This document shows positions 36,218 through 39,779 of a stretch of 64,000 nucleotides of DNA, piece after piece. The translations under genes were made by a program, and so were the position numbers. How positions within the stretch are numbered: position 1 is the stretch's first letter; each line of letters opens with the position of its first letter. The notes below the pieces were generated by a model. The model saw only the letters and a program-made list of their open reading frames with translations. It searched no databases and had not been told where the DNA came from. The DNA is from Rubellimicrobium rubrum. GTDB taxonomy: Bacteria; Pseudomonadota; Alphaproteobacteria; Rhodobacterales; Rhodobacteraceae. The stretch is from contig NZ_VDFU01000001.1 in assembly GCF_006152115.1 (NCBI RefSeq), positions 186,001 to 250,000 on the forward strand, in the 5' to 3' direction.

Positions 36218-38392
36218 TCAGCCCGCGATCTTCCGTTCGGCCCGCCGACGGTGCAGCACCGGTTCGGTATAGCCCGAGGGCTGGATGCGTCCTTTGAAGA
36301 CAAGGTCGCAGGCGGCCTGGAAGGCCACCGAGTCGAAGTTGGGCGCCATGGGCCGGTACATCGGATCATTCGCGTTCTGCCGGTCCACCACCGCCGCCAT
36401 CCGGCGCATCGCAGCCATGACGCGCGGCTCGTCCACGACCTCATGATGGAGCCAGTTGGCCAGCGCTTGCGAGGAGATGCGAAGCGTCGCCCGGTCCTCC
36501 ATCAAGCCGACGTCGTGGATATCGGGCACCTTGGAGCAGCCGATCCCCTGATCGACCCAGCGCACGACATAGCCGAGGATGCTCTGGACGTTGTTCTCGA
36601 CTTCGGCGGTCACCTCGTCCTCGGACAGGTTCCGCCCGCTCAGGACCGGGATGGTAAGCAGTTCGCGCAGAGTGCCTCGTGCCCCAGCGGATGCGATCTC
36701 GTCCTGCCGGGCGGCGACATCGACCAGATGGTAATGCGTGGCGTGCAGCGTGGCCGCCGTGGGCGACGGCACCCAGGCGCAGTTCGCCCCGGCCTTGGGA
36801 TGCGCGATCTTGTCCCGCAGCATCGCGGCCATGAGGTCGGGCATCGCCCACATCCCCTTGCCGATCTGCGCCCGTCCCCGTAGCCCGCAGGCCAGCCCGA
36901 TGTCGACGTTCCGCTCCTCGTAGGACCGGATCCAGGGCTGGGCCTTCATGTCCCCCTTGGGGACCATCGGCCCAGCCTCCATGGAGGTGTGGATCTCGTC
37001 GCCCGTGCGATCAAGGAAACCCGTGTTGATGAAAGCCACCCGTTCGCGCGCGGCGCGGATGCATTCCCTGAGGTTGGCGGAGGTGCGCCGTTCCTCGTCC
37101 ATGATGCCGATCTTGACGGTCAAACGCGGCAGGCCCAGCGCGGCCTCCACCCGGTCGAAGATCTCGCAAGCGAAAGCCACTTCCTCGGGGCCGTGCATCT
37201 TGGGCTTCACGACATAGACCGAGTTCGTGACGGTATTGCGCGGCCCGCCCTCGCGACGCAGGTCGTGCATCGCGCAAAGCACCGTGACCATCGCGTCCAT
37301 GAGCCCCTCATGGGCCTCGGCGCCGTCGCGATCCAGGATCGCGGGATTGGTCATCAGGTGGCCTACGTTCCGGATCAGCAGTAGCGACCGCCCTTTGATG
37401 GGCAAGCGCTGGCCGTCGATGCCTGTGTATTCGACGTCGGGGTTCATGCGCCGGGTGACAGTCTGCCCACCCTTCTCGAACGTCTCCTGTAGGTCGCCGC
37501 GCATGAGGCCCAGCCAGTTGCCGTAAGCCTGCACCTTGTCGGCGGCATCCACGCAGGCGACCGAGTCCTCGCAGTCCATGATGGTGGACAACGCGGCCTC
37601 GAGCCAGACATCCGACAGCCCGGCCGGGTCAGCGCTGCCAATGGGGGTGGAGCGGTCCACGCGAAGCTCGATCAAAAGCCCGTTCACGCGTAGGAGGATC
37701 TGCCATTCGGCCCCGTCGAGCCCCTTCCAGCCCACGAACTGATCCGGATCGGCCAGCATGACCCTCCGCCGCTCCGCGCCGTCACCCGCCACCTCGATCG
37801 AAAGGGCTTCCTGCTCCACTGCGATGCGGCGCACGTCCCGCCAGGAGGCACCGGCGAGCGGTGCCACCCGATCCAGGTGATCCTTGGCCCAAGCCACCAC
37901 GCGCGCGCCGCGCGCTTCGTCATAAGGGCCTTTGGGCGGCAGGTCACCCAGCGCGTCTGTCCCGTAGAGCGCATCATAAAGCGAGCCCCAACGCGCATTC
38001 GCAGCGTTCAGCGCAAAGCGGGCGTTCGTCACCGGTACGACAAGTTGCGGGCCGGCGACCTGCGCGATCTCGGGGTCGGTGGGGGGCGTCTCGATGACGA
38101 AGTCGGGTCCTTCGGGCACGAGGTAGTCAATCTCGCGCAGGAAGGTTTCGTAGTCCTCGGGGTCGTGCTCGGCACCGCCTTGCGCGATGTGCCAGTCGTC
38201 GATCTGACTTTGAAATTGGTCGCGCCGGGCCAGCAAAGCGCGGTTGCGCGGGCCCAGGTCGTGAACCAAGGCCGAAAGCCCCGCCCAGAAGTCCTCGGCC
38301 GCCACGCCGGTGCCGGGGATCGCGCGATCTTCGATGAACTGCGCCAGCGCCTCGTCAACCCGCAGACCGGACCGTTCTACCCGCTGTTGCAT
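36218..38392 (-). CDS. glcB: Malate synthase G
   Basis: Malate synthase G condenses glyoxylate with acetyl-CoA to malate. The 724-residue length equals that of the E. coli enzyme. Marks include [20 protein letters not shown]-like sequence in the middle, the catalytic region [40 protein letters not shown], and [19 protein letters not shown] near the C-terminus. The ATG at 38392 gives the family N-terminus; an open frame running 66 codons further overlaps the ArsR promoter region. No glycolate oxidase genes are adjacent. Confidence 0.95.
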
Positions 38393-38465
38393 CCGTGCCC
38401 CCAAGCCTTGCTTCCGCGTGAAGGCGTAGAGCAGGATTCCGCCGCAGGCAACCACGGGCCCTATA

Positions 38466-38482
38466 GTTAGTCGTATTGCTAA
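38466..38482. promoter_or_regulatory. ArsR-type operator copy 1
   Basis: The sequence GTTAG-N8-CTAA lies nine bases upstream of the -35 element of the ArsR gene. Reversed, its 17 bases match the second copy at 38518-38534 with one mismatch. It is also within 75-90 bases of the glcB start, so glcB might be affected. Confidence 0.6.
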
Positions 38483-38490
38483 GTTTCCAC

Positions 38491-38519
38491 TTGACAGAAT
38501 CGGCCCACCGACTTTAGTT
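38491..38519 (+). promoter_or_regulatory. Promoter of the ArsR-AHSA1 operon
   Basis: A perfect -35 TTGACA (38491-38496) is followed after 17 bases by TTAGTT (38514-38519). Initiation six or seven bases later falls on the A of the ArsR start codon, implying a leaderless mRNA. Confidence 0.65.
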
Positions 38520-38534
38520 AGCAATATGACTAAC
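38517..38534. promoter_or_regulatory. ArsR-type operator copy 2, over the start codon
   Basis: GTTAG-N8-CTAAC is a palindrome that overlaps the -10 element and the first three codons of the ArsR gene. Its centre is about 51 bases from that of copy 1, close to five helical turns. Confidence 0.65.
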
Positions 38535-38870
38535 AATTCGGAGCTCGACGCCCTGTTCCAGTCGCTGGCCGATCCGACGCGGCGCGCCATCCTGGCCCGC
38601 CTCGCTCATGGTTCGGCCAGCGTGACCGACCTTTTCGCGCCGTTCGACATGGCTCTCCCGTCCTTCCTCCAGCACCTCCGCAAGCTGGAGGACGGGGGCC
38701 TGATCGAGACGACAAAGCAGGGCCGCGTGCGGACCTGCACGCTCCGGGTCGGTGCCCTCGCCCCTGCCCGCGGCTGGATGGAGGAGCAGCGCCTCCTTTG
38801 GGAAGGCCGGCACGACCGGCTCGAAGACTACCTCGCCACCCTTTTGCAAGGACCCGACACCGATGGCTGA
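38526..38870 (+). CDS. ArsR-family transcriptional regulator
   Basis: The 114-residue winged-helix repressor has [19 protein letters not shown] and the recognition region [29 protein letters not shown]. It has no CXC metal site, fitting the non-metal subgroup that accompanies AHSA1/SRPBCC proteins. The ATG at 38526 matches the family N-terminus but has no ribosome site and coincides with the predicted transcript start. It overlaps the next gene by eight bases. Two matching palindromes around its promoter suggest autorepression. Confidence 0.9.
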
Positions 38871-39315
38871 CCTGACCCTGAACCGCATCTTCAAGGCTCC
38901 TCGCTCCAAGGTATGGGAGTGCTGGACCAATGCCGAGCACCTCAAGAAGTGGTTCGTTCCCCCGCCCGCCGAGTTGCCCGAGGCCATTATCGAGCCCCAC
39001 ACGGGCGGGCGCTTCTACACGGTGATCCGCTACCAGGGGCAGGACATGCCCGGTGACGGTGTGATCCTCGAAGCGGTCCCGAACGAGCGGCTGGTCTTCA
39101 CCAATATCCTGGCGCCCGGCTGGAAGCCCGCGACCAACGTGGACCTGCCTTTCACTGCCACCATCGAGTTCTTCGACCACCCCGAAGGGACCGAGTACCG
39201 CGTCACCGCACGTCACCCCGACGAGGAGACCGCCCGCAAGCACGAGGAGATGGGCTTCTCGCAGGGATGGGGCACCGCCGCCGACCAGCTCGGCCGCCTT
39301 GCAGAGTCGCTCTGA
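38863..39315 (+). CDS. SRPBCC/AHSA1-domain protein
   Basis: The 150-residue protein has the AHSA1 ligand-binding fold: LNRIFKAPRSKVWECWTNAEHLKKWFVPPP at the N-terminus, PHTGGRFYTVIRYQGQ, and a C-terminal helix with MGFSQGWGTAADQLGRLAESL. Such proteins beside ArsR regulators may bind small hydrophobic ligands; the ligand is unknown. The start overlaps the ArsR stop, and the stop shares a base with the next start (TGATG). Confidence 0.9.
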   Translation: MADLTLNRIFKAPRSKVWECWTNAEHLKKWFVPPPAELPEAIIEPHTGGRFYTVIRYQGQDMPGDGVILEAVPNERLVFTNILAPGWKPATNVDLPFTATIEFFDHPEGTEYRVTARHPDEETARKHEEMGFSQGWGTAADQLGRLAESL

Positions 39316-39779
39316 TGGACACCGCGACCCTGCCCGACGACCGCGTTCTGACGATCACGCGCTGGTTCCGTGCAAGCCCGGCCCAGGTCTATGCTGCCTG
39401 GACCGACCCCGAAGCCCTGCCCCGCTGGTTCGGCCCGAACGGTTATAGCTGCGAGGCCCACGCCAAGGATCTGCGGGTGGGCGGCGAATAGCGCCTTACG
39501 ATGCGCGGCGAGGGGATGCAGTTCGCCAATCGCCACCGCTGGACCGAGCTGTCGCCCCCCGGCGACGGGGCCGGGCGCATCGCCTTCCTCATGGATGGCC
39601 TCGACGGCAGCCCGCCCAAAGCGGTCACCGTGACGCTCACGTCCGAAGGCTTGGGCACCCGGCTTCGGCAGGTAATGGTGTTTCCGACTGCCGCCGAGGT
39701 CGCCGTGGCCCGGTCCCACGACGCCGAGGCAAAGGGCCTGCAAACCCTGGGCAAGCTTGCCGCTAGCTTGGGCGAGTGA
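39315..39779 (+). pseudogene. Second SRPBCC/AHSA1 gene interrupted by an amber codon
   Basis: The frame encodes RWFRASPAQVYAAWTDPEALPRWFGP up to GGE, then TAG at 39489-39491, and continues in the same frame with RLTMRGEG and a normal C-terminal helix to 39779. Family members have Trp at this position (G-E/R-W-R), so a single TGG to TAG change explains the stop. Without it the protein would be 154 residues. It could be a recent pseudogene, a sequencing error or a suppressed stop. The downstream half shows no other damage. Confidence 0.85.

Follow-up and report, generated by a model that had tools for sequence, protein, structure and literature searches.

The arsR gene of Rubellimicrobium rubrum, encoded together with an AHSA1 gene in the window (the whole stretch of 64,000 nucleotides analysed here), appears to be expressed from an autoregulatory promoter, in which a leaderless arsR mRNA is combined with two predicted operators and with repression of the arsR-AHSA1 operon by ArsR itself, a reading to which we assign a probability of about 0.8. 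Autorepression through two operators had been proposed from the letters of the window, and its support now comes from comparison of homologous loci, which brings out, as regularities of sequence, the predicted sites, their position, a constraint on codon 2 acting at the DNA level, the absence of a ribosome binding site and the co-occurrence of these traits with ArsR.

The mechanism that we infer would begin with RNA polymerase using TTGACA and TTTAGT and taking the A of the arsR start codon as the first transcribed base, so that the mRNA would have no leader. The inner operator has its centre at this A and, when bound by an ArsR dimer, would close off the -10 element and the start site. The outer operator would take up another dimer, which would add to the repression from a place immediately before the -35 element or, in other lineages, overlying it. 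Some signal, possibly read via the conserved Cys71, would release ArsR and thereby derepress both arsR and the AHSA1 gene. Because the inner operator runs into arsR, it would dictate codons 2-4 and leave a ribosome site no room.

The features of the locus are collected in Table 1. In the host genome of 4.6 Mb (G000) arsR is separated from glcB by an intergenic gap of 133 bp, the ATG listed is the first possible start of the arsR frame, and Rubellimicrobium proteins, with 89-91% identity, are the closest to the window ArsR among the matches listed. In four relatives examined (L010-L013) the counterpart stretch of the second AHSA1-type frame is open, so that the TAG interrupting it here would be either a nonsense mutation of recent date or an error of sequencing.

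Table 1. Genes, promoter elements and predicted operators of the arsR locus (positions in the window)
Feature	Positions	Strand	Remarks
glcB, malate synthase G	36218..38392	-	divergent neighbour of arsR
Tentative glcB promoter TTGCCT-N17-TACGCC	38423..38451	-	found by eye; weak -10
Outer operator (predicted) AGTTAGTCGTATTGCTAAGT	38465..38484	.	12/12 to ASTTAG-N8-CTAAST; directly upstream of -35
-35 element TTGACA	38491..38496	+	first base at -35 from ATG; TTG similarly placed in homologues
Likely -10 element TTTAGT	38513..38518	+	16-bp spacer
Inner operator (predicted) AGTTAGCAATATGACTAACA	38516..38535	.	11/12 to ASTTAG-N8-CTAAST; dyad centre at 5' edge of ATG
Predicted transcription start (A of ATG)	38526..38526	+	from promoter geometry and absence of a ribosome site
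arsR	38526..38870	+	114 aa; HTH_20/HTH_5 winged helix; single cysteine C71
AHSA1 gene (PF08327, 99.9 bits)	38863..39315	+	overlaps the end of arsR
Second AHSA1-type gene	39315..39779	+	frame broken by in-frame TAG, 39489-39491

Two near-identical inverted palindromes about 51 bp apart had been described ahead of arsR, and this description holds: the 18-base cores of the dyads, GTTAGTCGTATTGCTAAG at 38466-38483 and GTTAGCAATATGACTAAC at 38517-38534, are inverted copies agreeing in 16 of 18 bases, and exactly 51 bp separate their centres (38474.5 and 38525.5). The inner dyad covers the end of the -10 element, the predicted transcript start and codons 1-4 of arsR. As to the promoter, the original prediction stood in its TTGACA and in the placing of the 5' end on the ATG, but not in its -10 element, TTAGTT (38514-38519) with a 17-bp spacer, which agrees with TATAAT at only 2 of 6 positions. 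TTTAGT agrees at 4 of 6, and homologues most often have GATACT, AATACT or ATTACT at the same place, so that the -10 element is probably better read as TTTAGT with a 16-bp spacer. No Shine-Dalgarno-like run precedes the ATG in the window.

Conservation of the dyads and their association with ArsR

For the comparison 184 homologous loci were fetched in addition to that of the window, 80 of them kept from at least 524 listed relatives and 104 taken from genomes of the genus, family and class (by three sets of places, of which 69 of 69, 8 of 8 and 30 of 44 were used). One locus with no start found (L123) was left out, and of the resulting 184 near-duplicate and identity filters removed 14, leaving 170 non-redundant loci, the window included, that extend to Actinomycetota, Myxococcota and non-alpha Pseudomonadota. 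Dyads were scored by matches to ASTTAG-N8-CTAAST at 12 scored positions. An inner dyad at the edge of the ATG scores at least 7 in 142 of the 170 loci (core loci) and at least 9 in 135, exact STTAG occupies -9 to -5 in 116, and an outer dyad scoring at least 10 is found in 141 of the 170 upstream regions, where about one is expected from dinucleotide shuffles. Both dyads are strong (inner at least 9, outer at least 10) in 120 loci; phylogenetic footprinting thus finds the palindromes conserved across ArsR-AHSA1 loci and supports the proposal of two matched operators at arsR. The distance between the dyad centres, for the 126 loci with inner score at least 7 and outer score at least 9, is either 33-35 bp (52 loci, short design) or 47-52 bp (74 loci, long design, to which the window belongs).

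An inner dyad at the called start is missing in 28 of the 170 loci, including two (L059 and L167) in which an upstream GTG was called though an in-frame ATG stands on the dyad centre. Six of these 28 (L016, L019, L125, L127, L160 and L162) are without any dyad of at least 9/12, and 16 of the 142 core loci are without a good outer dyad. In two Corallococcus loci (L055 and, by eye, L078) no ATG stands at the inner dyad centre and the nearest in-frame ATG falls into the -10 region, the dyads of L055 being 33 bp apart.

With two mismatches allowed, 5 dyads were found in the window against 4.4 expected, so that the loose match carries no meaning. The exact 18-mer occurs at one place in the 4.6-Mb genome and, with at most one mismatch, at 9; the motif is not over-represented there, the reversed pattern having 60 places. 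Neither is the exact 20-bp dyad over-represented across 198 genomes of the family, where it occupies 33 places in 25 genomes against about 77 for the reversed pattern. Yet 25 of these 33 places adjoin an ArsR gene of the same subfamily (23 by coordinates, 2 by tblastn), and of the 8 outside this count 4 were read, none with ArsR. By these counts it is the location alone of the dyad that is special, not its number, and ArsR itself is the likely binder, since exact dyads concentrate beside ArsR genes of its subfamily. Upstream of three further ArsR paralogues that the genome contains (found at E 0.001; L002-L004) no such dyad is seen by eye, and in one of them (L002) a ribosome-site-like GGAAGGAG stands ahead of a second ATG; the design is therefore, on this evidence, a trait of the subfamily and not of ArsR genes generally.

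The 8 exact sites outside the ArsR-adjoining count might also be taken to mean that the dyads are bound by another regulator, or that they are promoter elements with no dimer binding them. We consider this very improbable in view of the 25 sites adjoining ArsR, of the presence of the dyad pair with and without glcB as a neighbour, of its recurrence in Actinomycetota, Myxococcota and other Pseudomonadota, and of the position of the inner right half in coding sequence, where a promoter element is unexpected.

ArsR, the binder preferred here, belongs to its family by the Pfam models HTH_20 and HTH_5 (44.7 and 31.1 bits; cut-offs 27 and 22) and by NCBIfam HTH_metalloreg (65.7 bits; cut-off 55). 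The ArsR-family structure 3F6O matches the window protein with E 2.3e-32 and, with E 2.6e-52, a Rhodococcus homologue (L033) whose locus carries both dyads; NolR, a regulator with a TTAG-type motif, is absent by name among the PDB sequence matches to ArsR. Assignment to the SdpR autorepressors (NF033789) was rejected at 48 bits against a cut-off of 100. ArsR/SmtB metal sensors carry a cysteine metal site in the region of the DNA-recognition helix; the window ArsR has one cysteine only, C71, and thus no multi-cysteine metal site, and it was not classed with the cysteine-type metal sensors. A cysteine occupies the C71 column in 143 of 170 homologues. By its position C71 probably lies in the wing and is a candidate signal site; a thiol-type signal acting on ArsR via C71 is our guess.

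The start of arsR and its second codon

The claim that arsR has no ribosome site is supported by pairing with the anti-Shine-Dalgarno sequence: the 142 core arsR starts behave like shuffled sequence (mean -2.37 vs -2.24 kcal/mol, 11% of starts at -6 or below), and the next reading frame pairs better (mean -5.88 kcal/mol, 52% at -6 or below, n=137). A Shine-Dalgarno-like tetramer within -20 to -3 was detected at 15 of the 142 starts. Counted from the ATG, TTG[AC] lies at -34 to -36 in 52 of the 53 loci of the short class and in 64 of the 75 of the long class. Since the distance of the -35 element to the ATG is kept and a ribosome site is missing, the arsR transcript would start on the AUG as a leaderless mRNA. 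The marks of a leaderless autorepressor are present in that, on average over these 142 and 137 starts, the regulator is without a ribosome site and the next gene has one, that the -35 and -10 elements put +1 on the ATG by their geometry, and that a predicted operator dyad overlaps the promoter.

Six loci with a displaced start (L018, L021-L024 and L101) lead to a different view of the 5' end. Their inner centre is followed by the called ATG only after 20-22 bp and, by eye, they have no strong ribosome site, so that translation of a leader lacking such a site may occur in the family; with the same operators and autorepression, the main transcript could then generally start upstream, with a leader of this kind. 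The fixed position of TTG[AC] in both classes speaks against this, as do the sequence logos, in which no second conserved promoter appears over the roughly 70 to 95 bp upstream that they cover, and an upstream start seems improbable to us in comparison with the leaderless one.

Codon 2, which lies in the right half of the inner dyad, is restricted in its third base. In core loci Ala is written GCT in 49 of 49 cases (6% elsewhere in the same genes), Thr ACT in 19 of 19 (4%), Pro CCT in 17 of 18 (10%) and Ser TCT in 4 of 4 (5%), so that codons of NCN type are NCT in 89 of 90, although the ArsR tree requires at least 22 changes of the residue itself. NCT is absent from codon 2 in all 28 non-core loci, and the next gene does not follow the T rule, with ACT for 6 of 58 Thr; its GCT for 4 of 6 Ala and CCT for 1 of 6 Pro come from samples too small to judge. 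These regularities support a constraint on the coding half of the inner dyad as DNA: if arsR has a leaderless mRNA, transcription leaves out the left half of the dyad, and selection would act on DNA and not on an RNA hairpin. A part of the codon-2 T could be a preference of leaderless starts. Across the inner dyad, positions -12 and +12 covary strongly by shuffle, and -4 and +4 are complementary in 108 of 142 loci against 78.4 by shuffle (reached in 0 of 2000). As proof of dyad selection, the -4/+4 covariation was dropped, there being only 5 supported independent pairs on the tree.

Spacing of the dyads and the divergent glcB gene

The 126 loci whose inner dyad is on the ATG have no centre distance between 35 and 47 bp. 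The short design places the TTG of the -35 element within the outer dyad, and the two move together (sd 0.14 bp, r 0.99, n=53); in the long design the -35 element follows shortly after the end of the outer dyad. The two designs interchange at least 3 times on the tree, so that the gap between them rests on few independent events. The long-design distance changes at least 35 times within a range of only 47-52 bp, and it therefore seems to be limited by something besides the -35 element.

Eight loci carry two dyads that are both upstream of the called ATG. In the six of them introduced above the dyads are 49-51 bp apart, codon 2 being AAC in five and ATC in one; in the other two, L096 and L091, the distances of 39 and 46 bp fall into the gap. 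Judging from the 49-51 bp kept with a displaced ATG, the spacing in most of these loci is apparently a property of the operators and the promoter, with the start codon as a passenger. One further locus (L075) has three tandem dyads centred at -102, -69 and -34 (33 and 35 bp apart), none of them on the ATG.

DNA looping, suggested in the original prediction, was not borne out. Calculated at 10.5 bp per turn, the 33-35 and 47-52 bp classes correspond to about 3.2 and 4.7 turns, about half a turn apart, and the long class itself varies by about half a turn; the common helical phase of looping repressors is thus missing, also with regard to the 39 and 46 bp of L096 and L091, and looping is not supported by these distances. 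The same data bear on a contact of the two dimers, via a small DNA loop or by stacking, with cooperative repression as its outcome, which we regard as unlikely but worth keeping in mind. The outer dyad is the better match in 73 of the 126 pairs (the inner in 19, with 34 ties), but its advantage is mainly that of the short class (mean scores 11.47 for outer vs 9.42 for inner dyads), where its movement with the -35 element fits direct occlusion of the latter; in the long class the means are nearly equal (10.84 vs 10.64). The long-class distance stays within its narrow range despite the many changes and with no -35 element forcing an upper limit, and 49-51 bp are kept in 6 of the 8 displaced-ATG loci, but the half-turn difference leaves the two designs no common face, the two loci with dyads 39 and 46 bp apart depart from both, and the few exchanges between the designs amount to few independent events. 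The autoregulatory promoter, with the outer dimer adding to repression from its place on or next to the -35 element, is the reading we prefer.

Divergent glcB was found upstream in at least 31 of 169 loci with the short flanks available, and in 28 of these the gap is estimated at no more than 288 bp; the glcB hits other than the window's own are 57-88% identical to it. It had been supposed that the outer copy may also reach glcB, which would make the intergenic region a control region shared by arsR and glcB, with the outer operator serving the latter. Besides the frequency of this neighbourhood, the tighter spacing of the dyads in the presence of glcB (sd 0.76 bp, n=18, vs 1.40 bp without it, n=56) would agree with such a role. 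The supposition gained no support, however, from the outer score of long-class loci, which is unchanged by glcB (10.78 with it, n=18, vs 10.84 without, n=56), or from the 53 short-class loci, which have an outer dyad by definition and no glcB found upstream; by eye, the tentative glcB promoter is clear of the outer operator and lies between it and glcB. An effect of the outer operator on glcB is possible, and a shared control region seems to us rather doubtful. At one locus (L015, apparently the same as L090) short repeats in tandem, resembling GGCCCCAGTTTTCAGA on the glcB strand, are placed between the outer operator and glcB.

Significance and relation to known systems

Taken together with the autoregulatory promoter, the comparison leads to a broader proposal, on which we see the chances as even, of a widespread and old device of two operators: one of them, having its centre at the first base of a leaderless gene, would write the first residues of the protein (such as MTN, MAN, MAK, MPN, MEQY, MDQY), two non-equivalent spacing designs would repress differently, with the outer dimer on the -35 element or just upstream of it, and a moved ATG would free both the N-terminus and the leader. 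The locus would offer a clean, testable case in which a binding site determines how a protein begins and takes away the ribosome site, with natural material at hand in the 142 variants of the sample, in the two spacing designs and in the loci whose ATG lies outside the operator. It allows operator, promoter and start codon to be predicted for a large group of arsR-AHSA1 operons, and its conserved cysteine is the first candidate for the signal of ArsR. No published account of the arsR-AHSA1 arrangement was found in the open-access literature, searched mostly by titles and abstract openings of the papers listed or ranked best.

Phage lambda CI and the TetR of Tn1721 have operators near their own promoters, with multi-operator cooperation in the case of CI, and differ from ArsR in protein family. 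Both are cited as repressors with leaderless mRNAs (PMC3017554). In S. meliloti 171 leaderless transcripts have been mapped (PMC3616915).

A close parallel is AcuR of the Rhodobacter sphaeroides acuR-acuI-dddL operon, whose transcript was located by 5' RACE as beginning with the AUG (PMC3017554). Like arsR, acuR encodes an autorepressor heading its operon, has no ribosome site and carries an inverted repeat over its promoter, the downstream genes have ribosome sites, and similar operons are reported from other lineages (PMC3017554). AcuR differs in being a TetR-family protein with one operator, TAATAGAC-n6-GTCTATTA, and acrylate as co-inducer, and the accessible part of that paper mentions neither an operator with its centre at the start codon nor a restriction of codons (PMC3017554). 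NreA of Mesorhizobium nreAXY, another small autorepressor with a dyad operator in its promoter, has a leaderless mRNA according to 5' RACE with a reporter in A. fabrum; it differs by its CsoR/RcnR family, by its single 19-bp operator in the -35/-10 spacer and by its nickel signal (PMC12724321).

By gene content the arsR locus is approached by Rv2034 of Mycobacterium tuberculosis, likened here by its published description: an ArsR-type autorepressor in an operon with an SRPBCC-type (polyketide_cyc2) gene, whose footprint extends over a palindrome from -30 to +3 of the coding strand, apparently counted from the start codon (PMC3338718). Its single palindrome, CCGTAAGT-N4-inverted CCGTAAGT, has another arrangement of half-sites, and neither a leaderless start nor a second operator is described in the accessible part of the report (PMC3338718). 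The leaderless autorepressor with an operator in its promoter is thus an established type, known from AcuR, NreA, lambda CI and TetR, and what appears to be new, as far as the open-access literature shows, is the ArsR-AHSA1 form, in which a predicted operator with its centre at the start base is joined by a second one, by a forced codon 2 and by two spacing designs.
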